A DNA stretch of 64,000 bases from Gordonia crocea (GTDB taxonomy: Bacteria; Actinomycetota; Actinomycetes; Mycobacteriales; Mycobacteriaceae), in the NCBI RefSeq assembly GCF_009932435.1, contig NZ_BJOU01000001.1:682001-746000 (forward strand), given 5' to 3'. The translations under genes were made by a program, and so were the position numbers. This document shows, in pieces, positions 32,909 to 50,710 of this stretch (the first letter of the stretch is position 1; each line of letters opens with the position of its first letter). The notes under the pieces were generated by a model, which had not been told where the DNA came from, did not search any database, and saw only the letters and a list, made by a program, of their open reading frames with translations.

Positions 32909-32960
32909 TCCCGGCGCGACCGTCGCGCCGTTCCTTGTCGGCGTTAGTTTGCATTTAACA

Positions 32961-32976
32961 GACTGAGGTGTCAGTC
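32961..32976. promoter_or_regulatory. TetR-type operator 1, upstream of the esterase-mce operon
   Basis: GACTGA-GGTG-TCAGTC is a perfect palindrome that extends by one A-T pair on each side (32960-32977). TTAACA lies just before it and TATATAGT just after (32981-32988), so the operator sits in the promoter of the operon that starts at 33016. Sites of the same form occur at 42665, 50602 and 50695. Confidence 0.7.
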
Positions 32977-33015
32977 TTGCTATATAGTGTGATCCGGGTA
33001 ACCAAAGGAGAACCG

Positions 33016-34038
33016 ATGACCGTGTCAGGCCGCGCGCCGGTGGCGCCACCTCGAGCCGTCGCCTACGAGGCGCACACCAGCGCTTTCGGGCGGCTGGCCG
33101 CGATGGGCAGTCGAGCCTTCGTCAAACCGGTGATTGGACTGTGGGCGCGCCTACCGAGGCTTCCGTGGCCCTACCGGCTTCTCGATCAACTCGCAGTACT
33201 CCTTCCCGCCGTGCGCGGAACCGTGCGCCACAGGGTGGACCTGCGCCACTGCCGGGCCGAGGCCATGGCCCCCGCGGGTTCCACTGCGCCGGTCGAAGCG
33301 GGCGCGATCCTCTACCTTCACGGCGGGGCCTTCGTCGTCGGCGGCATTCGTAGCCATCGACGGTTGGTCTCGAGACTCGTCCGTCTCACCGGGATCCCGT
33401 CACTTGCCGTGGACTATCGCAAGCTCCCCGCGAACCCGGTGAGCGCGGCGGTCGAGGATGCGATGGACGGATTGCACTACCTGATTGACAGCGGCATCCC
33501 CATCGAATCGATCGCGGTCGTCGGTGATTCGGCCGGCGGGTTCCTGGCAGTGACGGTTGCCGTGGAGGCGCGCCGCCGCGGTCTCGGCCAGGTTGCGGGT
33601 GTGGGACTCTTCTCGCCGATCATCGACCTGGAGCCGACCAGCAAGCTGGTCGCGATCCAGGCCGACGGCACCGCTCCCGATCCGCTCTTCCCCCGTGCCG
33701 CGCTCGACGCCCTGTGGGGTTTGGTGCAGCGGACGGAGGCAGACGACCAGGCCTGTGAGGCGTTGCGGTCAATCGCGACGGCTGGGCCGGAGGAACTGGG
33801 GACGTTGCCCCCGATTCATGTGCAGGTTGGGAGCGGTGAGCTGTTGCGACCCGATACCGACCGCCTGTTGGCCGCCTGCGCGGCTGGCGGTGGGACCGCG
33901 ACGGTCGAGGTATTCGCCAATCAGATCCACGTCTTTCAGGCGGGCGCGGACGTGATTCCGGAGGCCCGCCGGGCACTGGCGTCCATGGCCGGGCACATCG
34001 TCGTGACGATCAGTAAGGCCGGTGATAAGGCCGCATGA
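33016..34038 (+). CDS. HSL-type esterase, first gene of the mce operon
   Basis: A 340-residue alpha/beta hydrolase. LYLHGGAFVVGG is the oxyanion motif, VVGDSAGGFLAV carries the nucleophile, LRPDTDRL the likely acid and NQIHVFQ the histidine. It is a paralogue of the esterase at 5069. The ATG at 33016 follows AAGGAGAA. Its TGA overlaps the yrbE ATG (ATGA at 34035), so it is coupled to the transporter genes. Together with the downstream monooxygenases it could hydrolyse esters that are imported or made by Baeyer-Villiger oxidation. Confidence 0.85.
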   Translation: MTVSGRAPVAPPRAVAYEAHTSAFGRLAAMGSRAFVKPVIGLWARLPRLPWPYRLLDQLAVLLPAVRGTVRHRVDLRHCRAEAMAPAGSTAPVEAGAILYLHGGAFVVGGIRSHRRLVSRLVRLTGIPSLAVDYRKLPANPVSAAVEDAMDGLHYLIDSGIPIESIAVVGDSAGGFLAVTVAVEARRRGLGQVAGVGLFSPIIDLEPTSKLVAIQADGTAPDPLFPRAALDALWGLVQRTEADDQACEALRSIATAGPEELGTLPPIHVQVGSGELLRPDTDRLLAACAAGGGTATVEVFANQIHVFQAGADVIPEARRALASMAGHIVVTISKAGDKAA

Positions 34039-34862
34039 CGACCATGGGGGTGATGCTCGAGCGAGCCGACGGCTATGTGCGCCGTGTCGTGTTCGACTCG
34101 ATGGCGACGTTCGGCCGCTCGATCCAACTGGCGGTGGCGGTCGCCGTCTTCGGTGCCATCGACGTGCTCCGGGGCCGGTTCCCCTACCGTGATTTCCTCT
34201 CCCAGACGTGGTTCATCATCACCGTGACCGCGGTGCCGACCGTCCTGGTCTCGGTCCCCTTCGGGGTGATCGTCTCCGCTCAGGTGGGCAGTCTCACCCA
34301 ACAAGTCGGCGCCACCTCGGTCTCTGGCGCGGCCGGTGGACTCGGAATCATTCAACAAGGCGCCCCGATGGTCTCTGCTCTACTCCTCGGCGGGGCGGCG
34401 GGCGCGGCGGTTGCTTCCGATCTGGGGGCGAGGGTCCTGCGCGAAGAAGTAGATGCACTCCGCGCGATGGGCATCGATCCGATCCGTCGTCTCGTGGTGC
34501 CGCGGATCGCCGCCATGGTCGTGGTCGCGCCGCTGATCTGCTTCCTGACGATCATCATGGGTTTGTCCACCGGCTTCGGCATCGCCGTCGTCGTCCAGGA
34601 TGTTGCGCCCGGTTCCTACGTGTCGTCTTTCGCGGCCTTCACCAGCTTCGCCGACATCGGGATAGCGGTCGCCAAGTCGATCCTGTTCGCCTTGGTCGTC
34701 GCGGTGGTCGCGTGTCAACGCGGCATGGAAACCAAGCATGGCGCCATCGCCGTGGCGAACTCTGTCAATGCCGCGGTAGTGATCGGCGTCGTGGCCGCAT
34801 TCGCGTTGAACCTCGCGATCACGCAGTTGACCACTATGTTCTTCCCCCAACGGATTTTGTGA
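34035..34862 (+). CDS. yrbEA: Mce transporter permease YrbEA (MlaE family)
   Basis: A 275-residue MlaE-type permease with five or six membrane spans. VPTVLVSVPFGVIVSAQVG, GAAGAAVASDLGARVLREEVDALRAMGIDP (cytoplasmic coupling helix) and VVPRIAAMVVVAPLICF are characteristic. It pairs with YrbEB to form the membrane core of the Mce lipid importer. An MceG-type ATPase is needed but is not encoded in the window. Confidence 0.93.
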   Translation: MTTMGVMLERADGYVRRVVFDSMATFGRSIQLAVAVAVFGAIDVLRGRFPYRDFLSQTWFIITVTAVPTVLVSVPFGVIVSAQVGSLTQQVGATSVSGAAGGLGIIQQGAPMVSALLLGGAAGAAVASDLGARVLREEVDALRAMGIDPIRRLVVPRIAAMVVVAPLICFLTIIMGLSTGFGIAVVVQDVAPGSYVSSFAAFTSFADIGIAVAKSILFALVVAVVACQRGMETKHGAIAVANSVNAAVVIGVVAAFALNLAITQLTTMFFPQRIL

Positions 34863-34872
34863 GGCCGGTGAG

Positions 34873-35730
34873 ATGACACCGTCAAACTACCGGACGCGCG
34901 GCCTGCAGGCTGCCGCGCCGATCGTGGCGGGCCCGTCCACGGCACTCGCCATGATCGGCCACCAGTTGTACTTCGTCGCTGCCGCACTCCGTGCGGTCCC
35001 GGTTGCACTCGCCCGCTACCAGGCGCAGATCCTGGGTCACATCGGATCGATCACGTTCGGCAACGGGTCGATCATCGTCGGCGGCGGCATGCTCGGCGTC
35101 CTCGTCGTACTGGGCGCGGCCGTCGGGGGAACGGTCGGGATTCAGGGGTTCGCCCTTCTCGACATGGTGAATATGGGGCCGTTGACCGGCTTCGTCTCCG
35201 GCTACGCGACCACGCGCGAATTGGGCCCGATGATTGTCGCCGTCGGATTCGCCGCACAGGTCGGTTGTCGAATCACCGCCGAGGTCGGCGCGATGCGCAT
35301 CTCGGAGGAGATTGACGCGTTGGAGGCGACCGCGGTTGCCCCGATGCCGTTCGTCGTCTCATCCCGAATCGTGGCCTCGGTGGTCACGATCATCCCGTTG
35401 CACTTGCTCACACTCTCGGTCGCGTACCTGTCGTGCCGGATCGTGGTCAGCGTCGTCCACGGACAACCGATGGGCACATATGAGCACTACTTCACCGTGT
35501 TCGTCTCGTCCGGCGACCTCGTCTATTCGACTATCAAGGTCGTGGTCTTTGTCGTGGCCATCGTCCTCATCCACAGCTATCAGGGCTTTTACGCCTCTGG
35601 AGGGCCGGAGGGGGTCGGAGTCGCCGCCGGGCGGGCGATTCGCGCCAGCCTTGTCATCGTCGTGTGCTTGGACATGGTGCTGACCCTGCTTATCTGGGGT
35701 TTCGACTCCGGCGTGAGGATCTCGGGGTAG
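34873..35730 (+). CDS. yrbEB: Mce transporter permease YrbEB (MlaE family)
   Basis: A 285-residue MlaE-type permease. GMLGVLVVLGAAVGGTVGIQ, ATTRELGPMIVAVGFAAQVG, EVGAMRISEEIDALEATAVAP and VSSRIVASVVTIIPLHLL match the family. It starts 10 bases after yrbEA and ends 4 bases before mceA. It forms a heterodimer with YrbEA. Confidence 0.93.
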   Translation: MTPSNYRTRGLQAAAPIVAGPSTALAMIGHQLYFVAAALRAVPVALARYQAQILGHIGSITFGNGSIIVGGGMLGVLVVLGAAVGGTVGIQGFALLDMVNMGPLTGFVSGYATTRELGPMIVAVGFAAQVGCRITAEVGAMRISEEIDALEATAVAPMPFVVSSRIVASVVTIIPLHLLTLSVAYLSCRIVVSVVHGQPMGTYEHYFTVFVSSGDLVYSTIKVVVFVVAIVLIHSYQGFYASGGPEGVGVAAGRAIRASLVIVVCLDMVLTLLIWGFDSGVRISG

Positions 35731-35734
35731 CGAT

Positions 35735-36790
35735 ATGCCGTTGTGGAACGACCCTGCGGGGCGTGAGCCGAAGCCCAGAACATTGCGCATGATGGGGTTG
35801 GCGGTGGTTGTGGCTGTGACCGTCGCCGGTGGAGTGCTGGCGAAATGGAACAGCGGGGCGTTCAGCGACCGCTTCAACCTCACCATTGTTTCCCCGCGCG
35901 TCGGCGACGGTTTGGTTGCCGGTGCCGACGTCAAGTTCCGAGGTTATGTGATCGGCAAGGTGGCCGATCTGCGGGTCGACGGGAACGGTGGTCAACGGAT
36001 CGTCCTCACCATCAGGCCGGACCATGCTCAAGCCCTGACGACCGCGCTGGAACCCGTCTACTCCGCCTCTAACCTCTTCGCCTCAACGGGAATCGAATTG
36101 GTACCGACGGATGAGGTCGGGACGTCACTGGGCAACGACGCGGTCCTGACCATGACGACGACGAGCACCGCGTTGGGGACGATGACGAGTGTCCTCAGCC
36201 GGATTGGCAAGCTCTCTGCCCCGTTGGGTGACCCGGCGGTGTTACGGGCCTTGGGAACCCTTATCGATTCCGCAGATCCCTATCTCGAATTCACGCGAGA
36301 CGTCCTGCCATTGTTGTCCGGCCTCGCCGAGGACCAGAAGACTCCGGTCCGGGAGGTCCTGCGGAACCTCAGCCGGCTAAGCGATGCCATCCGTCCGGCG
36401 GTCGCGCCGACCTTGACCATGATCGACCGTTCGCTCGCCTCGTCGAGCTTCCTCGACGAGCCTGACGGCCTGGAGCGCACCTCGGCTGCTGCCCTGGGAC
36501 TGTCCAAACGGTTGGTGCTGCCGCTCGGTCACATGCTCGGCGGGGCGAATCTCCCGCACTTGCTGAACTGGATCGAAGTCGGTCTGGACTTCGGGCTGCC
36601 CATCGTCGTATCGGTCGGCACCATTCCGCATGCCTATTCCAGGCTGACGGAGTTGATCCGCAACACCGGCGACGCCTTCGTCACCCGTGACGACGGATCG
36701 GTCCGGCTCCTGGTCACAGTCTTGCTGACCAAGGCGCCGCAGTTGAGCACACCGTTGCTGCGGAAAGAAGTGTCGAGGAGGGGGAGATGA
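35735..36790 (+). CDS. mceA: MceA-type MCE-domain protein
   Basis: A 351-residue protein with an N-terminal membrane anchor (about residues 20-36) and an MCE domain (about 44-120) containing PRVGDGLVAGADVKFRGYVIGKVADL. The C-terminal half is helical and builds the periplasmic tunnel with the other five Mce proteins. Its TGA overlaps the mceB ATG. Confidence 0.88.
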   Translation: MPLWNDPAGREPKPRTLRMMGLAVVVAVTVAGGVLAKWNSGAFSDRFNLTIVSPRVGDGLVAGADVKFRGYVIGKVADLRVDGNGGQRIVLTIRPDHAQALTTALEPVYSASNLFASTGIELVPTDEVGTSLGNDAVLTMTTTSTALGTMTSVLSRIGKLSAPLGDPAVLRALGTLIDSADPYLEFTRDVLPLLSGLAEDQKTPVREVLRNLSRLSDAIRPAVAPTLTMIDRSLASSSFLDEPDGLERTSAAALGLSKRLVLPLGHMLGGANLPHLLNWIEVGLDFGLPIVVSVGTIPHAYSRLTELIRNTGDAFVTRDDGSVRLLVTVLLTKAPQLSTPLLRKEVSRRGR

Positions 36791-37791
36791 GAAGCGCTCG
36801 GCGTTCGCTCGTTTACACAGCGGTCTTCATCGCGGTGATCGCCGCGGCCATGGCGGTGATCGCCCGGACGCTGATCTCGCCGGTCCCGGGGGACAAGATC
36901 AGCTATTCGGCAGTCTTTTCCGACGTTTCGGGGCTTTATGAGGGCGATGCGGTCCGCGTCGCCGGCGTTGCGGTGGGGAAGGTGAGGCAGATCGATCTCG
37001 ATGGCGTGAGCGCGCGGGTCACCTTCACCGTGGTCAGTGACCACCGCCTTGACGACAATGCAGAAGTGGCCGTTCGCTATCAGAACCTGGTCGGTCAGCG
37101 GTATCTCGAGATCCTTCGCCGCGACGGGTCCCACGGTCCGCAATCGCCCGGTTCGGTCATCCCGAGTAGTCGGACGGTTCCCTCGTTCGACGTGACTGGG
37201 CTCTTCAACGGGATGGCCCCATTGATCGGGGCGATCGACCCGGCGGAGATCAATAGGCTGTCTGAGTCGATGGTCGCGGTCTTGCAGGGTGATCCCCGCG
37301 GAGTCGCGCCGGCGTTGGCCGCAATGCAGCGGATCAGCGGACTCGTCGCCAGGCGCGATGTCGTACTGATCACGATGGTAGACAACCTCAACGATCTGGC
37401 CGCCCAAATCGGCGGCCGGTCGGGGCAGGTGGCCAAGCTCGTCGACGGGCTCAACGCGACAATCCTTCGGTTCAACGACCGGATTCGCACTGTTCAGCAG
37501 TCACTTGACTACGGCGATCGGGTGCTCATGCCATTCGTCGACCTGCTCGAGATGATGCAGGGCAGCTACGACGAGAACTATGGGCCCCTCGATTCCTTAC
37601 TCAACCGGGTCATTCCGTTTACACCCCAGATCGTCGATGTGTTGTCGGCGATTCCAGGCGTGTTGTCGGCGATCAATGAGGGATCGCGTGCATTCGTCAG
37701 CGCGACGTACTCATGTGTCAATGGGCGGCTGGATCTTCCGGTCGTCACCAAAGCCCTCGTCGGGGGACGTGAAGTGGTGGTGTGTCGGTGA
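36787..37791 (+). CDS. mceB: MceB-type MCE-domain protein
   Basis: A 334-residue protein with an anchor at about 8-28, then an MCE domain with SDVSGLYEGDAVRVAGVAVGKV and YQNLVGQRYLEILR. A long helical part follows, ending in a cysteine-containing tail (CVNGRL ... VVCR). It is one of six subunits of the substrate channel. Overlapping start and stop codons on both sides indicate coupling. Confidence 0.9.
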   Translation: MRSARRSLVYTAVFIAVIAAAMAVIARTLISPVPGDKISYSAVFSDVSGLYEGDAVRVAGVAVGKVRQIDLDGVSARVTFTVVSDHRLDDNAEVAVRYQNLVGQRYLEILRRDGSHGPQSPGSVIPSSRTVPSFDVTGLFNGMAPLIGAIDPAEINRLSESMVAVLQGDPRGVAPALAAMQRISGLVARRDVVLITMVDNLNDLAAQIGGRSGQVAKLVDGLNATILRFNDRIRTVQQSLDYGDRVLMPFVDLLEMMQGSYDENYGPLDSLLNRVIPFTPQIVDVLSAIPGVLSAINEGSRAFVSATYSCVNGRLDLPVVTKALVGGREVVVCR

Positions 37792-38828
37792 AGCAGTTCA
37801 GATGGTTGGCGGCTCACGTCGCGGAGCTCCTCGGACAGGGTCGAAACCGAGGGCAGTCGATGATTCGAGCCAACCAACTCGTCATGGGCGGGATTGCGAT
37901 CGGCATCGTGGTGGTGGTGGCAGCCGCATTGGGAGTGCTGTACCTGCGGCCCATCGGATACGCCCGCTACGAGGCCGATTTGACCAATGCCTCCGGCGTC
38001 CGGCCGGGTGACCAGGTGCGTGTCGCAGGGATCCTCGTCGGCAAAGTCGATTCGTTGTCGCTCAACGGGAATCGGGTGCGGATGCGCTTCGCGGTGAAAG
38101 ACGGCGTGCGGCTCGGTCGCGATACCGGTATGGAGATCAAGCTCCTGACGCCGGTCGGTGGTCGATACATTCAATTGCAGCCCAGGGGGGCGGAACCGTT
38201 GGGGCGGCACGTCATCGCTTCGGACCGGGTGGCGGGCACCTATGACCTCGTCTCCCTGATCGAGATGGCGACGCCGAAGGCGGCCGAGCTCGACGGCGCG
38301 AAGATGCGATCACTGATTGAAACCATCGAGGAGGGGATGTCGGGTGCGCCGACGGCGATCGGCGACATCCTCGGTTCTACCTCGCAGTTGGCGTCGCGGC
38401 TGTCCTCGCGGTCCGACCAATTGGGGCAAGCGCTGCGGGTATCCGACGAATACGTGCGAGCCACGGCCGACGACCGGCAGGTCCTGTTCACCCTGGTCAA
38501 GAATCTCGGCAAGATCGGGGTTGAGCTCGGGGTGCGCCATCAACAGGTTCGGCGCGTGTTCAATTTGTTGACCAGGCTGTTCCTCTTCCTCGAGCGACCT
38601 ATTCTCGCCTACGCGCAGGCCGTCGAACCCTCGGTCGATTCGGTTCTGCAGATGTTGGAGCGACTCGAAGCCAAAGTGAACGGTATGGGCCGGGCCGTCG
38701 CGCAGGTCGATCAGGCGTTGGCCGTCGTGAAGCGCATGGTGGGCGACGACGGCATCGCGATCGACCAGTCGCACCGGGTCGTCACCGGAATCCGTATCTG
38801 TGTGCCGTCACCGGATCGGCGGTGTTGA
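37788..38828 (+). CDS. mceC: MceC-type MCE-domain protein
   Basis: A 346-residue protein with a membrane anchor at about 30-50 (MGGIAIGIVVVVAAALGVLYL) and an MCE domain with NASGVRPGDQVRVAGILVGKVDSL and TPVGGRYIQLQPRG. Helical coils and a short C-terminal ICVPSPDRRC follow. I chose the GTG at 37788, which overlaps the mceB stop as GTGA; GTG 37782 is also possible. Confidence 0.88.
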   Translation: MKQFRWLAAHVAELLGQGRNRGQSMIRANQLVMGGIAIGIVVVVAAALGVLYLRPIGYARYEADLTNASGVRPGDQVRVAGILVGKVDSLSLNGNRVRMRFAVKDGVRLGRDTGMEIKLLTPVGGRYIQLQPRGAEPLGRHVIASDRVAGTYDLVSLIEMATPKAAELDGAKMRSLIETIEEGMSGAPTAIGDILGSTSQLASRLSSRSDQLGQALRVSDEYVRATADDRQVLFTLVKNLGKIGVELGVRHQQVRRVFNLLTRLFLFLERPILAYAQAVEPSVDSVLQMLERLEAKVNGMGRAVAQVDQALAVVKRMVGDDGIAIDQSHRVVTGIRICVPSPDRRC

Positions 38829-39943
38829 CCATGGAGTCGCAGACCAGTAGCGCTGTCGCGCGCATGCGGGTGGGTGCAGTCCTCGTCGTCGTGACGGCGT
38901 TGGTCGTGGCGGGAGTCGGCCTCAGCTATCGCGTGATGGGTGGCGGTGCGACCCGTCACGTTTGCGTGGACCTTCCCGACGCGGTCGGCCTCTACAAGGG
39001 GAACGCGGTCAGTCTGATGGGTTTGACCGTCGGCCGCGTCGTCGCCATCGATCAGCGTGCCGGTGGCGTACGCGCCGATCTGGCCGTCGACGACGCCATT
39101 GAGTTGCCGGCCGACGTTGGCGCGGTGGTGATGGACGCGTCGATCGTGGCTGACAGGCGGGTCGAGTTTTCCAAGCCGTACGGCGGTGGACCCGTACTCG
39201 CAGCCGACGCGTGCATCCCGCAGAGCCGTACTCGGACACCGCGCGGGGTGACCCAGGCGTTCGCGGCGGTGGACGATTTTCTCAGCGATCTACTTGGCAA
39301 GGACGGCGCAGCGATCAGCAAACAGCGCACCGATGACATCGGTCGGTTGGTGGGCGTGGTCGACAAGAACCTCGCCGGCCGTGAGGGCGAGCTGCGGGCG
39401 TTGATGCGTGACGCGGTGACCGTCGCGGGTACCCCCAGCGAGACTGATGCCATTATCCGACGCCTCATCGACAACACCGACATCCTCGCGAGTCAGGCGA
39501 TGACCCGATGGCCAGACCTGTCCAACGTGGTGCGCACGGTGAACGATTCGGTATTGGCGTTCACCGGGTGGGCAGAGGAGTTCAGCGGAACGTTGGACTC
39601 GGCGGTCAGGTTCGTGCCGACGGTGGCCAACATCGTGCATCGAATCGGGCACCGCCTCGTGGCGATCATCGAAGTGCTCATGCCGATCGTCCAGGTACTG
39701 GCCCCGTTTGCGGCGATGATCGCGCAGTTCTTTGCCAAGATTCCGGGCTTGACCCGGCTGACCGACTATCTCTTCGACCCGGCAACCGGGGCATTCCGGA
39801 TCAGCTGGACGCCGCCCCGGGTTGCGATGGCGCCGGCGGATGTGGCCGCGTTGTGTGCGACGTTGGGCCGAGCAGGGCGCTGTGCCGCGGAGAATGCGGC
39901 ACGGTTCGGATTGATCCAGATGATCCTTGGAGGACGTCGATGA
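38822..39943 (+). CDS. mceD: MceD-type MCE-domain protein
   Basis: A protein of up to 373 residues with an anchor at about 17-38 (GAVLVVVTALVVAGVGLSY). The MCE domain contains DAVGLYKGNAVSLMGLTVGRV and ADRRVEFSKPYGGGP, and the C-terminal half is helical with several cysteines. The start may be GTG 38822, TTG 38825 (overlapping the mceC TGA) or ATG 38831. Confidence 0.86.
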   Translation: MLTMESQTSSAVARMRVGAVLVVVTALVVAGVGLSYRVMGGGATRHVCVDLPDAVGLYKGNAVSLMGLTVGRVVAIDQRAGGVRADLAVDDAIELPADVGAVVMDASIVADRRVEFSKPYGGGPVLAADACIPQSRTRTPRGVTQAFAAVDDFLSDLLGKDGAAISKQRTDDIGRLVGVVDKNLAGREGELRALMRDAVTVAGTPSETDAIIRRLIDNTDILASQAMTRWPDLSNVVRTVNDSVLAFTGWAEEFSGTLDSAVRFVPTVANIVHRIGHRLVAIIEVLMPIVQVLAPFAAMIAQFFAKIPGLTRLTDYLFDPATGAFRISWTPPRVAMAPADVAALCATLGRAGRCAAENAARFGLIQMILGGRR

Positions 39944-40932
39944 GCGCGGGTTGGCGGCGGGCAGTCCTCGCCGTGGTGGTCGCCGCCCTGGTTGCCGGGT
40001 GTGATTTAGGGGTGGTCCCCGGAGCGAATCGGGACGACACCTATCGGTTGAACATTGAGTTCTCGAGCGTGTTGAACATCCCGTCCGGTGCGAAGGTCCT
40101 CGTCGACGGCGTGCCGGTCGGACGGTTGGCAGGGGTGGCCCTCCGGCGGGACCGTGCGGTGGTGACTATCACCCTCGACCGGAAGCGGTTGCTGCCGGAC
40201 TCGACGAGGGCTGAGCTTCGCCAGATGACATTGCTCGGCGACTTGTACATCGCCTTAGTCCCGCCGTCGGGGGCCGACGGGCCGATGCTGCGTGACGGCG
40301 CCACCATCCCGATCACCCAGACCGAACCGCCGGCCAACGTGGAAACGACGCTGCTGAGCTTGAGCCAATTCATCAACGGAGGGCTTCTTGCGCGGGCGCA
40401 GGAGCTTGGCCGCAAAGCTAACGCGGCGCTGCCCGGTCCCGATGAACTGCGCCGACTCTCTGGCAGCGCGGCCCACCAGTTGTCGCAGCTCGGCGACTCC
40501 GTCGATCGGATGGACCGGCTGGTGCAGAACGGGTCGGCCATGGTCGGCTCGCTCGCGCGGAATCGAGCCACGGTGGAGCGCACGCTCACGATCGGGCCGG
40601 AGCGGTTTGCCGCGATCCAGCAGATGCTCTTGTCCATCATCGAGCTCATCGCCGATCTGCGGGTTCTCACCAAGCCGGGCGGTGATTTGCTCGCCGGACG
40701 GACTTATCCCGATCTGAAACGGATGCTTTCGCAGGCGAATCCCTGGTTGATGGAGATTGCGCGGGCCGATACATCGGTGCCGGAGAACCTGACTGCGTTG
40801 CGGGACCTTCTGGTCGCCAAGATTCAGCCGTTCCTCCTTGGCCGTGGCCAAGTGGATATCACGCGCATCGATGACACCAAAGGGCGGGCGACGAAGGTCG
40901 TCGACCTCCTCCAGGCGATTGGAGTGGTGTGA
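39940..40932 (+). CDS. mceE: MceE-type lipoprotein
   Basis: A 330-residue MCE-domain lipoprotein. The signal peptide ends in the lipobox LVAGC with Cys21 as the lipid-modified residue, as usual for MceE (Lpr) proteins. The MCE domain has SVLNIPSGAKVLVDGVPVGRLAGV and GDLYIALVPPSG. Its ATG overlaps the mceD stop, and its TGA overlaps the mceF GTG. Confidence 0.92.
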   Translation: MSAGWRRAVLAVVVAALVAGCDLGVVPGANRDDTYRLNIEFSSVLNIPSGAKVLVDGVPVGRLAGVALRRDRAVVTITLDRKRLLPDSTRAELRQMTLLGDLYIALVPPSGADGPMLRDGATIPITQTEPPANVETTLLSLSQFINGGLLARAQELGRKANAALPGPDELRRLSGSAAHQLSQLGDSVDRMDRLVQNGSAMVGSLARNRATVERTLTIGPERFAAIQQMLLSIIELIADLRVLTKPGGDLLAGRTYPDLKRMLSQANPWLMEIARADTSVPENLTALRDLLVAKIQPFLLGRGQVDITRIDDTKGRATKVVDLLQAIGVV

Positions 40933-41882: not shown

Positions 41883-41907
41883 CCGAACGAGGAACACGAG
41901 GTGAGGA

Positions 41908-42657: not shown

Positions 42658-42660
42658 GTC

Positions 42661-42739
42661 TTGAAACTGACACATCAGTCCGCTAATCTTATGAACAAGG
42701 GTGAATCTGCGCCCCGTAAACCGAAACGACATGTCAGTC
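42661..42739 (+). promoter_or_regulatory. Promoter with TetR-type operator 2 (and a weaker second site)
   Basis: TTGAAA (42661-42666), a 17-base spacer and TAATCT (42684-42689) form a good promoter. The operator AACTGA-CACA-TCAGTC (42665-42680) fills the spacer. A weaker copy, AAACGA-CATG-TCAGTC, lies at 42724-42739 just before the ribosome site of the monooxygenase gene. Confidence 0.7.
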
Positions 42740-42762
42740 TTACTGATGGAGGGAGGCGACGC

Positions 42763-44343
42763 ATGACCGAACCAGATCATCTCGTCGCGATCATCGGAGC
42801 CGGTCCCGGAGGAATCTGTGCGTCGGTCCTGCTGCAAGAGAAGGGGATCAACGACTTCGTGATCGTGGACCAAGCGCACGACTTCGGTGGCAGCTGGCGC
42901 GATAACCACTATCCGGGTCTTGGGGTCGACGTCCCGGGCTTCACCTATCAGTATTCATTCGCGCGGAACCCCGAGTGGCGTCGGATGTTCCCGATGGGGA
43001 AGCAGGTTTGGGAGTACCACTGCACGGTCGCGCGCCGCTATGGGTTGTACGAACACGCCCGCTGGGGTACGCGGGTGGTGAAGGAGGAGTGGGATTCTGA
43101 TGCCGGCTACTGGCGGCTGCACGTCGCCGATGGATCGCAGATTACCGCCCGATTCGTCATCTCCGCCGTCGGCGCCTACATCCTGGCCAAGGAGGACCCG
43201 GGGATTGAGGGCTACCGTGATTTCGCTGGCAAGGTCCTGCGGCCCAACGATTGGGATCACGACTACGACCTGCGGGACAAGCGTGTGGCGGTTATCGGCA
43301 CCGGGGCCAGCTCAGTCCAGATCACCCCGTCGATAGCGCCGGATGTCCAGGCGCTGGAGGTCTTTCAGCGGACGGCGGTGTGGGCTCTGCCGAAGCCCGA
43401 CTTCGCACTTCCGAGGCCGGTCGGGAAGGCAATGGCCAGCTCGCCGGTCGGCGCCGGACTCGGTGGGATCGCCAATCTCGTGGTCGAAGGAGCACTGCGT
43501 TTGGTGTACCAGACGCCACGACCGCTGTTTCGCCTGGCCGCGCCGCTTTTCGACTCGATCAGCCGCGCGCTCTACCGCTCGTACCTCCGCGTCATCGTGC
43601 GCGACGCGGACACCCGGCGCCGCCTGATGCCCGACTATGGGCCGCTGGGCAAGCGTCCGACCCTGTCCAACCGCTTTCTCCAGGCTTTCAACCGGCGCAA
43701 CGTCTCACTCGTCGATACGCCGATTGAACGTATCGACGCCGAGGGCATTTGGACGACTGATGGTGTGCATCATCGGTTCGACGCGATCGTTCTGGCGACC
43801 GGATACCACCTGTTCTCCGACCCGGAAAGCTACGTCGAGGGCACGGTCGTCGGGCGCGATGGGTTCGACCTGGGGATCTTCTACAACGAGCAACGCCTGC
43901 AGGCGTACCAGTCAGTCTCGGTGCCCAAGCTGCCCAACCGCTGGATGTTGGTGGGTCCCTATTCGTGGATCGGGACCGGGTGGCATGAACTCGTGGAGAT
44001 CTCCTCGTCACACGCGGTGAACGTGATCGCCGCGGCAGTGGGCCGGGGGGAGGACGTGGTCGAGGTGTCGCAACAAGCCCACGACGAGTACCACGCGATG
44101 ATCCGGCGCAACGACGAGAACATCGACTACTACTTCAACACCGTGAACGCGGGCCTGCGGACCTACTACGTGAACTCCGCCGGCGATATGCCCTACATCA
44201 GGCCGACGAGCCTGTTCACTGCGCGCAAGCAGAGTCGCGACGTCGACCTGAGTGCGTACACCTTCCGCCGCGTGTCGGAGACCGAAACCGACCGCCCCCA
44301 GAAGCCCCGTCAACGTCGCCGTGCTGCCGCGGCAGGAAAGTAG
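42763..44343 (+). CDS. Flavin-containing monooxygenase, Baeyer-Villiger-like (1)
   Basis: A 526-residue class B flavoprotein monooxygenase. The FAD motif is VAIIGAGPGGICASVLLQ and the NADPH motif RVAVIGTGASSVQ. DFGGSWRDNHYPGLGVDVPG is the usual second FAD block. The Baeyer-Villiger fingerprint FxGxxxHxxxW reads FAGKVLRPNDWD from about residue 154, with Arg in place of His. The expected reaction is oxygen insertion next to a ketone to give an ester, using NADPH and O2; the substrate is unknown. The ATG at 42763 follows GGAGGGAGG. An SDR gene follows 9 bases later. Confidence 0.83.
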   Translation: MTEPDHLVAIIGAGPGGICASVLLQEKGINDFVIVDQAHDFGGSWRDNHYPGLGVDVPGFTYQYSFARNPEWRRMFPMGKQVWEYHCTVARRYGLYEHARWGTRVVKEEWDSDAGYWRLHVADGSQITARFVISAVGAYILAKEDPGIEGYRDFAGKVLRPNDWDHDYDLRDKRVAVIGTGASSVQITPSIAPDVQALEVFQRTAVWALPKPDFALPRPVGKAMASSPVGAGLGGIANLVVEGALRLVYQTPRPLFRLAAPLFDSISRALYRSYLRVIVRDADTRRRLMPDYGPLGKRPTLSNRFLQAFNRRNVSLVDTPIERIDAEGIWTTDGVHHRFDAIVLATGYHLFSDPESYVEGTVVGRDGFDLGIFYNEQRLQAYQSVSVPKLPNRWMLVGPYSWIGTGWHELVEISSSHAVNVIAAAVGRGEDVVEVSQQAHDEYHAMIRRNDENIDYYFNTVNAGLRTYYVNSAGDMPYIRPTSLFTARKQSRDVDLSAYTFRRVSETETDRPQKPRQRRRAAAAGK

Positions 44344-44352
44344 GCCACGGCC

Positions 44353-45225
44353 ATGAGATTCGCCAAGTTTCCGGTCAATGGTTCCGTCGCTTTGGTTACC
44401 GGCGGGGCCCGCGGGATCGGCTATGCCATCGCTGACCGACTCTCCCGCGCGGGGGCGCGTGTCGTGATCGCCGATCTCGATGAAGTCGACGCCAAGGAGG
44501 CTGCCCAGCGGCTCGGCCGCGGAGCGGTGGGCATCGGACTCGACGTGCGCAGCCGCGACCGCTATGAAGCTGTGGTCGACGAGATCGAGAGCTCGACCGG
44601 GCCGATCGACATCGTCGTCAACAACGCCGGCATCATGCCCGTGGGTCCCATCCTCGATGACGGGCCCGGTGTCGCTGCAGCGACCATGGACGTCAACTTT
44701 TGGGCCCACCACCATTCGTTCACGATCCTCGCGCCCCGGATGGTCGGCCGAGGGCGTGGGCACTTCATCAACGTCACCTCGGCGGCCGGTGCCATTCATT
44801 CGCCGGGGTTGGCGGTGTACGTCGCCAGTAAGCACGCGGCAACCGGCTTTGGCCGCAGTGCCCGCGAAGAGTTGCAGGGGACCGGAGTCACCGTGTCGGT
44901 GGTGATGCCATCGGCAGTGCGAACCGAACTCGTCGACGGGATTCCCTTCAAACGCTGGGAGCGTCTGGGGATCGTCTCGCCGACGATGGTCGCGCGGCGG
45001 GCGGTAGGCACCCTGCGGCGGCGCCCCGCCGTGGTCGGCGTCCCGACGGGTACCGTCCCGCTGCTCCGGCTCTATCACGTCGTACCCGAATGGGCCTGGC
45101 TGCTGGGACGTCGGCTCGTCGGAGCGGATCGGACCCTCGAACCCTATGACAAAGCGGCGCGTGCCGACTATGACGCTCGGATCGAGATCCAGACCATCGA
45201 AAGTGGGGCAGGGAAATGGCACTGA
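44353..45225 (+). CDS. Short-chain dehydrogenase/reductase (1)
   Basis: A 290-residue SDR. VTGGARGIGYAIADRL is the cofactor loop, ADLDEVD after beta-2 points to NAD(H) preference, NNAGIMP is the structural motif, and S in NVTSAAG with YVASKHA gives the catalytic Ser, Tyr and Lys. It probably interconverts an alcohol and a ketone. The last 10 bases overlap the next monooxygenase gene, so it is part of that operon. Confidence 0.88.
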   Translation: MRFAKFPVNGSVALVTGGARGIGYAIADRLSRAGARVVIADLDEVDAKEAAQRLGRGAVGIGLDVRSRDRYEAVVDEIESSTGPIDIVVNNAGIMPVGPILDDGPGVAAATMDVNFWAHHHSFTILAPRMVGRGRGHFINVTSAAGAIHSPGLAVYVASKHAATGFGRSAREELQGTGVTVSVVMPSAVRTELVDGIPFKRWERLGIVSPTMVARRAVGTLRRRPAVVGVPTGTVPLLRLYHVVPEWAWLLGRRLVGADRTLEPYDKAARADYDARIEIQTIESGAGKWH

Positions 45226-46796
45226 AGAAGTCGAAGCGGGTCCAGGCGCAAACCGCCCCCGGATGTGATCATCTGGCCATCATCGTCGGCGCCGGTTTCG
45301 GTGGCCTGGGCATGGCCATTGCTCTCAAGCGGCAGGGATTCGACGATTTCGTCGTCCTTGAACGGTCATCCGGGGTTGGGGGGACTTGGTATGCGAATAC
45401 CTATCCCGACGTCGCGGTCGATGTGCCGGGAATCGTGTACCAGTTCTCGTTCGCGAAGAATCCAGACTGGTCGCGCACCTTCCCCAAGGGGGCCGAAGTG
45501 CGTGCCTACATCGAAGATCTCGTCGAAGAATACGATCTGGACCGACATTTGCGACTCAACCACGACATGGTCTCGCGCGAGTGGGACGAGTCGGCGCAAC
45601 AGTGGAAGGTCGGTCTGGCCGACGGCCGGACCCTGACGGCGAAGTACGTGATCTCGGCGGTCGGCGCCTTCGTGGAGCCGCGGGTCCCCGACATCGCGGG
45701 ACTCGGCGACTTTGCGGGGAAGGTGATCCAGACGCAGGCCTGGGACCACGATTACGATCTGACGGGCAAGCGCGTCGCAGTGATCGGGACCGGTGCGACA
45801 TCGGTCCAGTTGGTTCCCGAACTGGCGGAACGCGCCGCCCACCTCGACGTGTACCAGCGCCGTGCCATCTGGGTCTTCGCGAAGCCCGACTTCGCCATCC
45901 CCAAAACGGTGCGGACGGCGTTTCGTTACCTACCGGTCCTGCAGAGCTTGATCCGGGGAGTGGTGGCGGCGGCCGTCGAGGTCGGGCTGGTCGGGATCAC
46001 GGTCTATGGCAAGCAAGTCGCACCGCTGACGCTGGTGCCCAACTGGGCCTGCCGCGCATTTCTCTTCACCCAAGTCCGGGATAAGGAACTGCGGCGGAAG
46101 CTGACCCCCTCCTATGGGTTCGGGTGTAAGCGTCCGAGTGTCTCCAACCGCTACTACAAGGCCTACACGAGGGCTAACGTCGATCTGGTCACCGACCCGA
46201 TCGAGCGGATCACCCCGGCCGGGGTCGCCACCGCTGTCGGCGTCGAGCGGCCCGTTGACGTGCTTGTGTTGGCCACGGGTTTCGAGATGAGTCAGAGCCC
46301 CGAGCCTTACCGCAGAAGGCCGGTGCGTGGGCGCGACGGCTTTGACCTTGCCGAGTTTTACGACAAGAACCGCGCGAAGGCCTACGAGGGGGTGTGTATG
46401 CCGGGATTGCCCAACCACTTCTTTGTGTTCGGCCCGTTCTCCTGGAGTGGTAGCAGTTGGCACGTCATGGTGGAGAACGCCATGCGGATCGCCACGCGGC
46501 TCATTTCCGAAACCGAGCGTCGCGGGGCATCGTCGGTGACGGTGACCGATGCGGCGAACGAGCGGTTCTTCGAATTTATCTCCGCGCGGGGGTCGGATAC
46601 GTTGATGCACGGTAAAGCGTGTATCAATGCGAACTCGTACTACATCGACAAACACGGGGATTTCGGTTTCCTCCGTCCGACGACGGCCTATCAATCGACG
46701 AAGGCCAGCAAGCGAATTCCCATGGAAGACTTTGACTTCCAGTACGGCCCGCGGGTCGAGAATGAACCCGCCGCCCAATTGGAGGTAGTCAAATGA
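45216..46796 (+). CDS. Flavin-containing monooxygenase, Baeyer-Villiger-like (2)
   Basis: A 526-residue relative of the enzyme at 42763. LAIIVGAGFGGLGMAIALK is the FAD motif, GVGGTWYANTYPDVAVDVPG the second block and RVAVIGTGATSVQLV the NADPH motif. The fingerprint reads FAGKVIQTQAWD, with Gln where His is expected. Two related monooxygenases in one operon suggest consecutive oxidations or different substrates. The gene overlaps the SDR before it and the small membrane protein after it. Confidence 0.83.
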   Translation: MALKKSKRVQAQTAPGCDHLAIIVGAGFGGLGMAIALKRQGFDDFVVLERSSGVGGTWYANTYPDVAVDVPGIVYQFSFAKNPDWSRTFPKGAEVRAYIEDLVEEYDLDRHLRLNHDMVSREWDESAQQWKVGLADGRTLTAKYVISAVGAFVEPRVPDIAGLGDFAGKVIQTQAWDHDYDLTGKRVAVIGTGATSVQLVPELAERAAHLDVYQRRAIWVFAKPDFAIPKTVRTAFRYLPVLQSLIRGVVAAAVEVGLVGITVYGKQVAPLTLVPNWACRAFLFTQVRDKELRRKLTPSYGFGCKRPSVSNRYYKAYTRANVDLVTDPIERITPAGVATAVGVERPVDVLVLATGFEMSQSPEPYRRRPVRGRDGFDLAEFYDKNRAKAYEGVCMPGLPNHFFVFGPFSWSGSSWHVMVENAMRIATRLISETERRGASSVTVTDAANERFFEFISARGSDTLMHGKACINANSYYIDKHGDFGFLRPTTAYQSTKASKRIPMEDFDFQYGPRVENEPAAQLEVVK

Positions 46797-47098
46797 CCCG
46801 CGTGCGTGCCGTCGGTGATGCCGTCATCACGGTGATCGGCTGGGTGTTGATCGTGTCGGGGTTGCTGCATTTCGCGGTACCGCGACCGTTCCGGGCGATT
46901 TCCAAGCCGCTGTTCGGCAAGAAGACCTCCACATACGTCAAGATCAACGGCGCATCGGAGGCGGCGATCGGGCTCGCGCTGACCACCAAGCAAACCCGGG
47001 TGGCCGGCCTCGCGGGTCTGGCGGCATACGGGGTGTACCTAGGCGATAGGATCGTCGCTTATGGATGGCGGCGCTTCGGCAACAGACGAGAGCGGTAG
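46793..47098 (+). CDS. Small hypothetical membrane protein
   Basis: A 101-residue protein with two or three hydrophobic segments (VITVIGWVLIVSGLLHFAV, a GASEAAIGLAL region, and AGLAGLAAYGVYLGDR). It might be DoxX-like, but the signature is too short to be sure. Its ATG overlaps the stop of the monooxygenase gene, so it belongs to the same operon. The TetR start at 47061 lies inside its last 38 bases. Confidence 0.6.
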   Translation: MTRVRAVGDAVITVIGWVLIVSGLLHFAVPRPFRAISKPLFGKKTSTYVKINGASEAAIGLALTTKQTRVAGLAGLAAYGVYLGDRIVAYGWRRFGNRRER

Positions 47099-47783
47099 CG
47101 CCTCGCACTCTCCGACTGCCGCACCGGCTCCGCGCAGGGGCCGACCGGTCTCGGTCGGACTCGCGGAGCGGCGCCGCGAAGAGCTGACGCGGGCGGCCTA
47201 TGAGGTATTCGTCGAGTATCCGTACGACGACGCCCCCGTCAGCGAGATCGCCCGCCGGGCGGGCGTGGGACAAGGGACCCTCTACCGATATGTCGACGGC
47301 AAGCGCGAACTCCTCGACCTGGTGGTCGACTGGTGTGTGGACCGCCTCATGGAGGCCATCGATCCAGAAATGGTTCTGGCGGCGGCGGAGGCCGACGATC
47401 CCAGCGCGCTGCAGGTCGTGGTCGACGATATCGGTCGACGGTTGTTCGATCTCATCGACGCCGAGCCCGGGTTGTTGCGCATTCTGACGGTGCAGGGCGG
47501 GGCCGTCGACCGCGAACTGCGCTACCGCATCACCGGTATCTACAACACGGTCGATTCGCTGATCGTGCGGGTCTTGACCACGGCGACCGAGAACGGCTGG
47601 ATGAATCTCGACAACCAGCGGGCTGAGCTCATCGCACGCATCCTTCCGTCGCTGGGCCTCCCCGGTCTGGTGTTGGCCTTGACCCCTTCGGAAGACCAGA
47701 TGGGAAAACGGGCGGAGTACGTCGGCGCCGCATCACAGATTGCCCGGCACGGGCTTCTCGGGGCGGGACGCGACGATGGCTAG
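47061..47783 (+). CDS. TetR-family regulator (a)
   Basis: A 240-residue TetR protein with a low-complexity N-terminal tail of about 25 residues and a helix-turn-helix at about 38-85 (APVSEIARRAGVGQGTLYRYVDGKRELLD). The start is uncertain because it overlaps the previous gene; a shorter form starting nearer the RRGRP segment is possible. It overlaps the next TetR gene by 8 bases. One of the pair is the obvious candidate to bind the RACTGA-N4-TCAGTY operators of this block. Confidence 0.8.
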   Translation: MDGGASATDESGSASHSPTAAPAPRRGRPVSVGLAERRREELTRAAYEVFVEYPYDDAPVSEIARRAGVGQGTLYRYVDGKRELLDLVVDWCVDRLMEAIDPEMVLAAAEADDPSALQVVVDDIGRRLFDLIDAEPGLLRILTVQGGAVDRELRYRITGIYNTVDSLIVRVLTTATENGWMNLDNQRAELIARILPSLGLPGLVLALTPSEDQMGKRAEYVGAASQIARHGLLGAGRDDG

Positions 47784-48396
47784 GGCATCCCGGCGCAATG
47801 AATTGCTGGACGCGGCCCTCGCCGAGTGGGCGAGCCGCGGCTACGCGGCCATCGGGGTCAAGGAAATCACCGCACGCGCCGAGGTGAGCCACGGCACCTT
47901 CTACAACTATTTCGAGAACCGCCGACAGATGCTCGACGTGCTCATCCAGAGGGAGATGGCCGACTATTTGGAGATCCTGTCCGCGTCGGCGCGCGACATC
48001 GCGCGCCCGGTGACCGATGATTCTCTTCATGCCGAGATTACCCGCGTCTCGTCGGAGATTCTGCGCCGCGCTCTGCGCGAGACAGACGATTTGGCCTTCA
48101 TTCTGCTCGACGTCGCAGGAATCGACGACGATGCCCTGCAGGGACAGATCGAACTGTTCCGCGATGCCGGGCGACGCGCTCAGACGATTCTGGCATCGGC
48201 TGTTGCCGATGGCGTGATCGACGAGTCGGTCAGTCTGGAGTTCGCCGGCCAGGCATGGATTTCGGCCATTCTCGGTCTGCTTGCGCCGGTAGTCGCCGAT
48301 GGCAGAGACCTGGGCGACATCGATTCGGTCGCACGAGTTCTTGCCGACGCGCTCCTGCATGGCGTTCCCGTCCCGGTTCCCGACGACGCTGCCTGA
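47776..48396 (+). CDS. TetR-family regulator (b)
   Basis: A 206-residue TetR protein with helix-turn-helix at about 25-50 (IGVKEITARAEVSHGTFYNYFENRRQMLD). The C-terminal half is the ligand-binding region. The ATG at 47776 overlaps the stop of regulator (a). Tandem TetR units next to an mce operon recall Mce3R of M. tuberculosis, a single protein with two TetR domains; here they are separate overlapping genes. It converges on the SRPBCC gene. Confidence 0.83.
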   Translation: MARASRRNELLDAALAEWASRGYAAIGVKEITARAEVSHGTFYNYFENRRQMLDVLIQREMADYLEILSASARDIARPVTDDSLHAEITRVSSEILRRALRETDDLAFILLDVAGIDDDALQGQIELFRDAGRRAQTILASAVADGVIDESVSLEFAGQAWISAILGLLAPVVADGRDLGDIDSVARVLADALLHGVPVPVPDDAA

Positions 48397-48415
48397 GGGC
48401 CGCGCCTCGACCGGG

Positions 48416-48979
48416 TCAGATGGTCGTTTCGCGAACGGCGGTCAGGCCGTTGCGGTGCTCGCGGGGGAGCCCGCGTAGCCCGAACCGGAAGATGGCCTGG
48501 AACAGCGGTGCAGTCCACCGCAACGGTAGGCGGCCCAGGAATCGGACGTGCACCGCCATCGTCCAACTCAGCCGCGAGCCGCCCGCGGGCCGCGCGCTGA
48601 TCCGATAGTCCTCGAACCAGGTGCCAAAGAAGGGCAGGGTGGCGTCGGTGGCCGTATACGCGAGGCGTGCGCTCGGCTCCCAGACGAGTATCTGCTCACG
48701 CTGGGCGTAGATCAGCCAGTGGTGGAGGAACATCTGGAAGTCGCGAACCGTGCCGACGGCAACCTCGGCACCGTCGTCGGGATAGCGGCAGCCCCACACG
48801 AAGGGCAGCCACGACCACATCCGGTCGGAGGACACGATCGACCACAGGTCGTCGGGGTCGATGTCGGGGAAATCGTAGACGACGTGGGTGCAGAACGGCG
48901 CCGTGTCAATCGCTTCGGCGGCGGACTCGAGGGTAACCGGGGCGGTGGCGCGGAACCGGAAGCGGGCGAGGGGCTGCAT
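48416..48979 (-). CDS. SRPBCC-family protein
   Basis: A 187-residue soluble protein with a START/polyketide-cyclase-like pattern: THVVYDFPDIDPDDLWSIVS at the start, SWLPFVWGCRYPD in the middle and a C-terminal amphipathic helix (RFLGRLPLRWTAPLFQAIFRF). It probably binds a hydrophobic ligand. The ATG at 48979 overlaps the stop of the upstream monooxygenase gene by one base. The C-terminus closely resembles that of the protein encoded at 30910. Confidence 0.65.
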   Translation of the reverse strand: MQPLARFRFRATAPVTLESAAEAIDTAPFCTHVVYDFPDIDPDDLWSIVSSDRMWSWLPFVWGCRYPDDGAEVAVGTVRDFQMFLHHWLIYAQREQILVWEPSARLAYTATDATLPFFGTWFEDYRISARPAGGSRLSWTMAVHVRFLGRLPLRWTAPLFQAIFRFGLRGLPREHRNGLTAVRETTI

Positions 48980-50553
48980 CAGTTCACCGCGCTCAGGGAA
49001 GCCTCGGATTCGGCCGGTGTCGGCCGACCGCTGGTGAAACGGTAATCGGACCGGTCGAACTCGACGCTGCGGCGCCGCGATTGATAAATCGTCCACGGCC
49101 GGACATAAACGGATTCTCCCTGCGAGTTGACGAAATAGGTGTTCGAGCCCGCGCAGTGAATGGAGAAGTAGTGGGCGAGATTCTGTCCCCGCTTGACCAT
49201 GTCGTCGTGGAAGCGCGCTTGCGCCTGTTCGGTGACCTCGACCCGGGTCGCGCCGCGGTCACGCGTTTCGTCCAGCACCGCGGTGATGTGCCGTGTGGCA
49301 TTCTCCAGGATGTAGTGGAAGGCGGTACCGGTCCAGGAATACGGCCCGACCAGCATCCAGCGGTTGGGCAGACCGGCGACGGCTGTGCTGTGGTACGCGC
49401 GCAGGCCGACCGAGTTGTAGTAGCGGCCCAGGTCGAACCCGTTGTGGCCCACCACCGTTCCCTCTCGGTAGGTTTCCGGATCGGAGAACATCTCGTATCC
49501 GGTGGCGAGGACGAGCGCATCGATCGGTCGGCGCACCCCGTCAGCGGTGACCACTGCGTCGGGCTCGATGTGGTCGATCCCAGTGGTGTGTAGTGCGACA
49601 TTGTCGCGGTTGAAAACCGAGAGATAGCCGCCCCCCAGGGTGCCGCGCGTACAGCCCGGTCCATAGGACGGGTCGAGTTTGCGGCGGGTTTCCCGATCCT
49701 TGACGCACAGTCTCAGCCACAGGCGGTAGAGCGCGTGTCCGGCGCGGTCGAAGGTGTTGGCGGCCGGCGCGAACAGCCAGCGCGGGGTGTAGATCAACAC
49801 CCGCAATCCGAGTTCCATCACGGCGAGGATGGCTTCGTGGAGCCATCCGGCCAGGCGAGGGAGGCCCAGTGCGCGCTGCAACCATCGGGGGGTCGCGAAG
49901 TCTGGCTTGGGGAAGTACCACTGGGGGGTGCGCTGGTAGATATCCAGGTGCTCGACCTGTTCGGCGAGCGCCGGGGCGATCTGAACCGCACTGGACCCGA
50001 CGCCGATCACGGCGACGCGTTTGCCGGCGAAGTCGTAGTCGTGATCCCACCCCGAGGGGATCACGACCTTCCCCTCGAAGGTCGACAGGCCTTCGATGTC
50101 CGGCTTGTCCTTGGGGTTGATGTAGGCGCCGACGGCACTGAGGACGAATCGTGCGGTGATCGTCTGTCCGGTGGCGGTGTGCAGTTCCCAGTGGTGGTTG
50201 TGCTCGTCCCACTGCTCGCGAACGACTTCGGTGCCGAAGATTGTCTTGGCATCCAGGCCTGCGTCTTTCGCCAGGCCGACGTGGTAGTCCTGGATCTCGT
50301 CGCCCTTGGCGAAGAAGTGGCTCCAGTCGTTCTTGGGGGCGAATGAGAATTGGTAGGCGAGGAACGGCAGGTCGGCGCCGACGTTCGGGTACGTGTTGGC
50401 CCGCCAGGTGCCCCCCAGGTCGTCTGCCCGCTCGATCAGGACGAAGTCGTCGATGCCGATTTCTTGCAACTTGATTCCGGCGCAGATCCCGCCTGCTCCG
50501 GCTCCGATGATTGCGACCTCGACGTCGGTGGTGCGCGGCGTAGTGTCTCCCAT
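48979..50553 (-). CDS. Flavin-containing monooxygenase, Baeyer-Villiger-like (3)
   Basis: A 524-residue relative of the enzymes at 42763 and 45216. VAIIGAGAGGICAGIKLQ is the FAD motif, DLGGTWRANTYPNVGADLP the second block and RVAVIGVGSSAVQIAP the NADPH motif. The fingerprint reads FEGKVVIPSGWD, with Ile where His is expected. It heads a two-gene transcript with the SRPBCC gene. The promoter holds TetR-type operator 3. Confidence 0.83.
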   Translation of the reverse strand: MGDTTPRTTDVEVAIIGAGAGGICAGIKLQEIGIDDFVLIERADDLGGTWRANTYPNVGADLPFLAYQFSFAPKNDWSHFFAKGDEIQDYHVGLAKDAGLDAKTIFGTEVVREQWDEHNHHWELHTATGQTITARFVLSAVGAYINPKDKPDIEGLSTFEGKVVIPSGWDHDYDFAGKRVAVIGVGSSAVQIAPALAEQVEHLDIYQRTPQWYFPKPDFATPRWLQRALGLPRLAGWLHEAILAVMELGLRVLIYTPRWLFAPAANTFDRAGHALYRLWLRLCVKDRETRRKLDPSYGPGCTRGTLGGGYLSVFNRDNVALHTTGIDHIEPDAVVTADGVRRPIDALVLATGYEMFSDPETYREGTVVGHNGFDLGRYYNSVGLRAYHSTAVAGLPNRWMLVGPYSWTGTAFHYILENATRHITAVLDETRDRGATRVEVTEQAQARFHDDMVKRGQNLAHYFSIHCAGSNTYFVNSQGESVYVRPWTIYQSRRRSVEFDRSDYRFTSGRPTPAESEASLSAVN

Positions 50554-50595
50554 GGTGGGACCTCTCGTTGAATGGCAGTCGATCCGTTCCAGTAA

Positions 50596-50625
50596 ACTAT
50601 AGACTGACGCATCAGTTCAACTAAT
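50596..50625 (-). promoter_or_regulatory. Promoter with TetR-type operator 3
   Basis: On the minus strand TTAGTT (50623-50618), 17 bases and TATAGT (50600-50595) form a promoter for the monooxygenase gene at 50553. The spacer is filled by the operator GACTGA-CGCA-TCAGTT, given here as read on the plus strand (50602-50617). Confidence 0.7.
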
Positions 50626-50694
50626 TCCAAGGGATTCGCGTTATCGACGACCATTCCCACCGAGACTCTGCGCTGGTAGCGTCGGCCGTCGACA

Positions 50695-50710
50695 GACTGA
50701 TGTATCAGTT
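50695..50710. promoter_or_regulatory. TetR-type operator 4, upstream of the second SDR gene
   Basis: GACTGA-TGTA-TCAGTT lies 21 bases before the GTG at 50732. With operator 3, 77 bases away, it brackets the divergent gap 50554-50731, which holds nothing else recognisable. Confidence 0.65.

Follow-up and report, generated by a model that had tools for sequence, protein, structure and literature searches.

Our study examined a stretch of 64 000 nucleotides from Gordonia crocea (contig NZ_BJOU01000001.1, positions 682 001 to 746 000; hereafter the window) and revealed a set of short palindromes that are very probably operators of one regulon, with a pair of TetR-type genes in the same block, TetR1 and TetR2, as its regulator. 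At the level of sequence, the regulon is real and conserved. The full reading, in which TetR1 and TetR2 also act together as a heterodimer, is given a probability of about 0.6, and heterodimerization is the most likely mode of action of the pair.

Probable operators in the window and in orthologous blocks

The pattern RACTGA-N4-TCAGTY, proposed in a first-pass annotation of this sequence, was found exactly four times in the window, at 32961, 42665, 50602 and 50695 as annotated, and in 0 of 100 dinucleotide shuffles of the window. The 3.78 Mb genome contains five matches and none to a reversed control pattern. This count, with four matches inside 18 kb, is notable because 60 relatives contain the pattern 26 times, in 22 genomes, an average of approximately 0.4 per genome; the probability of four of the five matches falling within 17.75 kb is 2e-9, although this figure was computed after the cluster had been seen. 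The four 16-mers lie 21 to 82 bases upstream of gene starts assigned in our analysis, which supports their proposed placement at the starts of transcription units. The matches are not limited to the block, since the fifth precedes a second mce operon at a distance of approximately 52 kb.

Conservation of the motif before orthologous blocks, a check proposed with the annotation, was found in other Gordonia genomes. In the orthologous blocks of seven of them (named loci include those of G. araii, G. hirsuta, G. zhenghanii and Gordonia sp. UBA7599), sites precede many of the same genes, not all, and share the consensus ACTGA-YRYR-TCAGT. The operator centre is therefore constrained, being mostly YRYR across sites rather than the freely varying N4 first described. 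Sites precede the esterase orthologue in G. araii, G. hirsuta, Gordonia sp. X0973 and G. effusa, and no esterase site was seen in the orthologous blocks of Gordonia sp. PDNC005 (G077) and G082.

A symmetrized matrix was built from 23 sites of the seven other Gordonia genomes, with the window sites left out. The six highest-scoring positions in the window were 50696, 42666, 50603, 32962, 42725 and 30873 (28.4 to 18.8), and the seventh scored 10.8. Across 60 Markov sequences of window length, the best score had a mean of 10.8, a 95 % mark of 16.7 and a maximum of 20.3, so that the scores of 42725 (19.0) and 30873 (18.8) alone are not proof. These two positions were accepted as probable operators because of their place and conservation besides their scores. 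Position 42725 is the site of the first monooxygenase gene (MO1) that aligns in all five species compared, and its spacing of 59 bases from 42666 is preserved in G. araii; position 30873 is a symmetric variant, AGTGA-N4-TCACT, and a similar site precedes the orthologous gene in G. araii. The block probably holds six operators, of which 42725 and 30873 were absent from the first-pass annotation, plus one distal site.

That the palindromes are a chance or non-regulatory repeat is scarcely credible. Single matches do arise by chance in other genomes and one perfect 14-base palindrome lies inside mceF; however, neither the shuffles nor the reversed control yielded a match, and the operators are conserved before orthologous genes though their flanks have diverged. 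The mceF palindrome (ACTGA-N4-TCAGT, 41771-41784) was rejected as an operator, as its flanks and centre are wrong and it scores 2.8 with the matrix, versus 18.8 to 28.4 for the six sites.

The sites and genes of the block, with strand in brackets, are as follows.

30873..30886 (+), probable operator AGTGACGCATCACT, AGTGA-CGCA-TCACT, 23 bases before SRP188, matrix rank 6; counterpart before the orthologous gene in G. araii, AGTGATACGTCACT
30910..31461 (+), SRP188, 183 amino acids, present in the G. araii orthologous block; Pfam and NCBIfam scans gave no match
31526..32908 (+), ABC1-type atypical kinase (PF03109, E 9e-48)
32961..32976 (+), esterase-mce operator, matrix-ranked, with counterparts before the esterase orthologue in relatives
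33016..34038 (+), esterase/lipase, hormone-sensitive-lipase like (PF07859); ATG 39 bases past the operator
34035..42657 (+), mce operon: two MlaE permeases, six Mce proteins and a Mce-associated protein
42665..42680 (+), MO1 operator, distal copy; G. araii also has one, at the same 59-base spacing
42725..42738 (+), MO1 probable operator, proximal copy, AACGACATGTCAGT, matrix rank 5
42763..44343 (+), MO1, class-B flavin monooxygenase, Baeyer-Villiger-like (PF13738/PF00743)
44353..45225 (+), SDR1, short-chain dehydrogenase (SDR; PF00106)
45216..46796 (+), MO2, class-B flavin monooxygenase, for which cyclohexanone monooxygenase is the best solved relative
46793..47098 (+), small protein weakly resembling MauE/DUF2065, under Pfam cut-offs; often near the TetR pair
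47061..47783 (+), TetR1 (PF00440); in the tree, in the group of fused double-TetR N halves
47776..48396 (+), TetR2 (PF00440); in the tree, in the group of fused C halves
48416..49096 (-), SRPBCC/polyketide-cyclase-like protein (PF10604), from the first start codon; the true start may be further in
48979..50553 (-), MO3, class-B flavin monooxygenase
50602..50617 (-), MO3-SRPBCC operator, matrix-ranked
50695..50710 (+), SDR2 operator, matrix-ranked
50732..51673 (+), SDR2, short-chain dehydrogenase (PF00106); GTG start after GGAAGGGGGAACC, read from the sequence

A Pfam scan of eight of the nine mce-operon proteins found PF02405 in two and PF02470 in five; the last protein had a sub-threshold SnoaL_4 match only, and the sixth Mce protein (mceE) was named from its place and from tblastn to other mce operons. 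The esterase matched NCBIfam GESAG-HSL under the cut-off, and NCBIfam gave no above-cut-off match for the regulators or monooxygenases. A terminator-like hairpin at 32912-32930, between the ABC1 gene and the esterase operator, is consistent with a separate esterase-mce transcription unit.

The palindromes stand where TetR operators would be expected, yet promoters there were not recognized by a sigma-70-like scan, which gave no match at the operator sites, 42665 and 50602 included. The proposal that the operator exactly fills a 17-base spacer at these two sites was thus left unsupported; by eye, 42665 can be read as TTGAAA-N17-TAATCT, with the operator extending into the -35 element.

The mechanism that we infer is that of one autoregulated TetR-type repressor system with the operator ACTGA-YRYR-TCAGT. 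Its controlled units would be SRP188-ABC1, esterase-mce, MO1-SDR1-MO2-TetR1-TetR2, MO3-SRPBCC and SDR2, with a hydrolase-mce operon approximately 52 kb off as a further unit. The repressor would consist of TetR1 and TetR2, products of overlapping paralogous genes, and control would be autoregulatory because this pair seems to end the MO1 operon. The repressor, when bound to the core promoter, would block transcription until a ligand, presumably an imported lipid or its oxidation product, freed the operator; release would turn on uptake (mce), oxidation and hydrolysis together, plus the repressor itself as feedback.

The TetR pair and its relatives

TetR1 and TetR2 both carry the TetR helix-turn-helix (HTH) domain, with PF00440 above its cut-off. 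They overlap by eight bases, the ATG of TetR2 overlapping the stop codon of TetR1 (ATGGCTAG), and are two open reading frames in different frames, not one polypeptide. Among 59 Gordonia genomes, 12 had a TetR1-like match at a threshold of 1e-14, eight of them with split TetR1 and TetR2 genes and four with a fused form only. The refined 15-mer was present in seven of the eight split carriers (not G074), in none of the four fused-only genomes and in four of the 47 others; the comparison of 7/8 split carriers with 4/51 remaining Gordonia gave a Fisher P of 7e-6. With one mismatch allowed, 46 sites were counted in the eight carriers, and the orthologous blocks account for 26.

A TetR encoded elsewhere could in principle bind these sites, the local pair being coincidental, as the genome has 16 TetR2 matches at E 0.001, TetR2 itself included. 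We regard this as very improbable, because the motif tracks the pair across Gordonia, and partly across genera, and because solo relatives bear such a palindrome where their own gene starts. An order-wide search of 150 genomes found 11 with a match, two of them Gordonia. The nine solo relatives are approximately 30 % identical to TetR1, and no separate TetR2 was found in the 13-20 kb read around them. Each of the nine has one palindrome, AATGA-YRYR-TCATT, located at its own start or immediately ahead of it, with a monooxygenase or SDR gene no more than a few kb away. This operator type is therefore tied to this TetR clade, and a TGA-YRYR-TCA core typical of the clade argues against an unrelated regulator. 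Nine further solo relatives came from a family-wide search, in which TetR1-like genes were found in 55 of 201 genomes and 40 regions of 20 kb were fetched around matches; three had an exact ANTGA-YRYR-TCANT (one of them asymmetric), L273 and L268 had a one-mismatch site and four had none.

Judged from sequence, the rule linking motif and pair is strong in Gordonia and partial beyond it. Of the 23 split-pair loci from other genera, nine contain a palindrome of the ANTGA-YRYR-TCANT type, in most cases ahead of an mce, monooxygenase or TetR gene. Exact matches lay before yrbEA, MO1 or MO3 or in the TetR1/ABC1 region at L239, L253, L258, L259, L260, L261 and L263. Split pairs accompanied by sites are also present in Mycobacterium kyorinense and M. 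sphagni, and in G291, a presumed Tsukamurella genome, the three site places found genome-wide front TetR1/ABC1, MO1 and MO3.

Several arrangements of these genes were observed in addition. G. effusa (loci L173 and L175) combines a split pair in the monooxygenase block with a fused double-TetR that lies in a different mce cluster; the 20 kb read there showed no such palindrome. Gordonia sp. X0973 has, in addition to its TetR1-TetR2 pair, an extra TetR1 copy (L049:1720-2331) that is flanked by a mauE-like gene and SDR2 and shows 69 % identity across the matched stretch. In seven of 13 annotated loci (L238-L240, L249, L258-L260), an ABC1-kinase gene is found close to the pair or the fused form, and in four fused Gordonia loci (L052-L055) close to the fused form, even where mce and monooxygenase genes are absent.

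Probable joint action of TetR1 and TetR2

Joint action of TetR1 and TetR2 is favoured because their genes overlap, the halves of fused relatives nest repeatedly among them and the predicted fold of a fused relative is Mce3R-like. In our tree, seven of ten fused rows had an N half that grouped with TetR1 and a C half that grouped with TetR2, nested there at several separate places; rows P0097, P0099 and P0100 lay apart, and Mce3R was not in the tree. The predicted fold of a fused relative matched Mce3R best. Mce3R of Mycobacterium tuberculosis (Rv1963c; PDB 9b7y) is one chain and is reported to recognize asymmetric, non-palindromic sites of 25 bp (PMC11667970). Mce3R thus has two TetR-family units in one chain, whereas here there are two separate overlapping genes, with fused forms in relatives, and the operator is a palindrome of 14-16 bp, unlike the 25-bp non-palindromic operator given there for Mce3R. 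A TetR1:TetR2 heterodimer would reproduce, with two genes, the architecture that Mce3R contains in a single polypeptide.

KstR and KstR2 are likewise TetR homologues with short palindromic operators and a role in lipid use, in their case through sterol genes. KstR differs, however, in its operator, and TetR1 and TetR2 scored 19.9 and 31.6 against an NCBIfam KstR cut-off of 280. No KstR-type motif (TnnAACnnGTTnnA) occurs in the window, which supports the annotated distinction between the two palindromes.

It is rather unlikely that TetR1 alone binds as an ordinary homodimer while TetR2 answers another ligand or site. Such a homodimer would suit the partnerless solo relatives, which have symmetric palindromes with the same core, and the extra TetR1 of Gordonia sp. 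X0973, which has no adjoining TetR2 of its own. However, TetR1 and TetR2 adjoin in the split loci that were read, relatives show repeated fusion of the two, and the fold predicted for a fused relative resembles that of Mce3R. The converse, in which TetR2 alone binds DNA and TetR1 is accessory or acts elsewhere, is improbable. The TetR2 HTH (SHGTFYNYF) shares H-G-T-F-Y with that of the solo relatives (GHGTFYRYF), but the TetR1 HTH is intact and profile scores place the solos somewhat closer to TetR1. The annotated notion of one dimeric repressor holds in so far as one TetR-type regulon is indicated and both local genes are likely regulators by sequence, but TetR1 and TetR2 acting together are more probable than a single ordinary homodimer.

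A number of observations speak against a heterodimer, or against a close tie between pair and palindrome. Of the 27 assigned Gordonia sites, 17 have equally good halves, which fits a homodimer as well; this asymmetry test is weak, 15 of 53 listed sites having been dropped for want of one clear target gene, and operator asymmetry was not retained as proof of a heterodimer. Both tree groups were supported just below the strict mark, and long branches were flagged. Mce3R was only fourth of near-equal PDB hits for the TetR1 and TetR2 profiles, so strict orthology with Mce3R was not established by sequence, and the best stretch of the TetR2 profile lay on the N half of Mce3R, not the C half. Beyond Gordonia, no target was assigned to the palindromes at L259:5873 and L260:7731 or to one in M. 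sphagni, and no palindrome was present in the approximately 20 kb read at eight of nine g63 split loci, four of four g74, one of two Tsukamurella and L265. In M. kyorinense, assignment of the second TetR to the TetR2 type is not clear (scores 118 versus 107). The 13 genomes with the fused form have two matches in all, neither near a block gene, and the fused form may consequently read another operator; sites were found at none of nine fused Tsukamurella loci. A clean rule that a fused pair has no palindrome was rejected, as the two annotated fused Tsukamurella loci, L240 and L246, lack mce and monooxygenase genes in the 20 kb read, and the split locus L238, which lacks such genes, has no sites either.

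As a tentative extension, to which we give somewhat less than even odds, an obligate TetR1:TetR2 heterodimer, on a near-palindromic operator with its better half facing the gene, may be the ancestral form of Mce3R-type double repressors; several fusions or splits would then have taken place in Gordonia, Tsukamurella and Mycobacterium, and operator asymmetry would have followed. The regulon lends itself to the study of how two TetR proteins became a single working unit of the kind seen in Mce3R, because split, fused and solo relatives coexist naturally, with split and fused forms in one genome in G. effusa. No report of the motif or of a split Mce3R-like pair was found in the openly licensed full-text literature, judged largely from result listings.

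Enzymes of the probable regulon and sites outside the block

The controlled genes encode an ABC1 kinase, an esterase, a mce importer, three class-B flavin monooxygenases, two SDRs and an SRPBCC protein. By family knowledge, their theme is likely to be import of a lipid or ketone-forming compound, followed by dehydrogenation, flavin oxidation and ester hydrolysis. MymA-type gene sets, with a flavin monooxygenase, an SDR and a lipase, present a similar combination of enzymes. MO1, MO2 and MO3 carry FxGxxx(R/Q/I)xxxWD (in 42763-44343, 45216-46796 and 48979-50553, respectively). The Baeyer-Villiger fingerprint has His where these proteins have R, Q or I, and Baeyer-Villiger chemistry is therefore not assured for them. 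Our analysis provides a concrete regulon for the mce and flavin-monooxygenase set in Gordonia and relatives, with an operator, a likely regulator and a distant second mce target.

This distant target is marked by the fifth genome match (784539), which directly follows a ferredoxin-reductase-like gene and precedes an alpha/beta hydrolase gene, with the second mce operon after the latter. The same bases and gene order are found at this site in G. araii (L176). Between the distal operator and the hydrolase start lies an inverted repeat, TAGTA-CTAGA-TACTA (L056:8603-8617, near 784.6 kb), which is also kept in G. araii and is perhaps the site of another regulator.

A further 14 regions were fetched around near-matches or matches in non-carriers, with genes called by a rough script. 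In three of them a site preceded the type of gene expected, namely in G062:C94 (second mce), G064:C2 (SDR) and G077 (L188:4726), whereas the others showed none. In G. effusa, a perfect operator (L177:9667, G064:C2) precedes a further SDR gene outside the block, a probable extra member of the regulon by sequence. In Gordonia sp. PDNC005, a one-mismatch site (L188:4726) lies approximately 140 bases before another mce operon, a possible extra target. One Gordonia genome without the TetR pair (L057, G003:C62) has one perfect 16-mer and several near-matches within 20 kb, with no block genes there.

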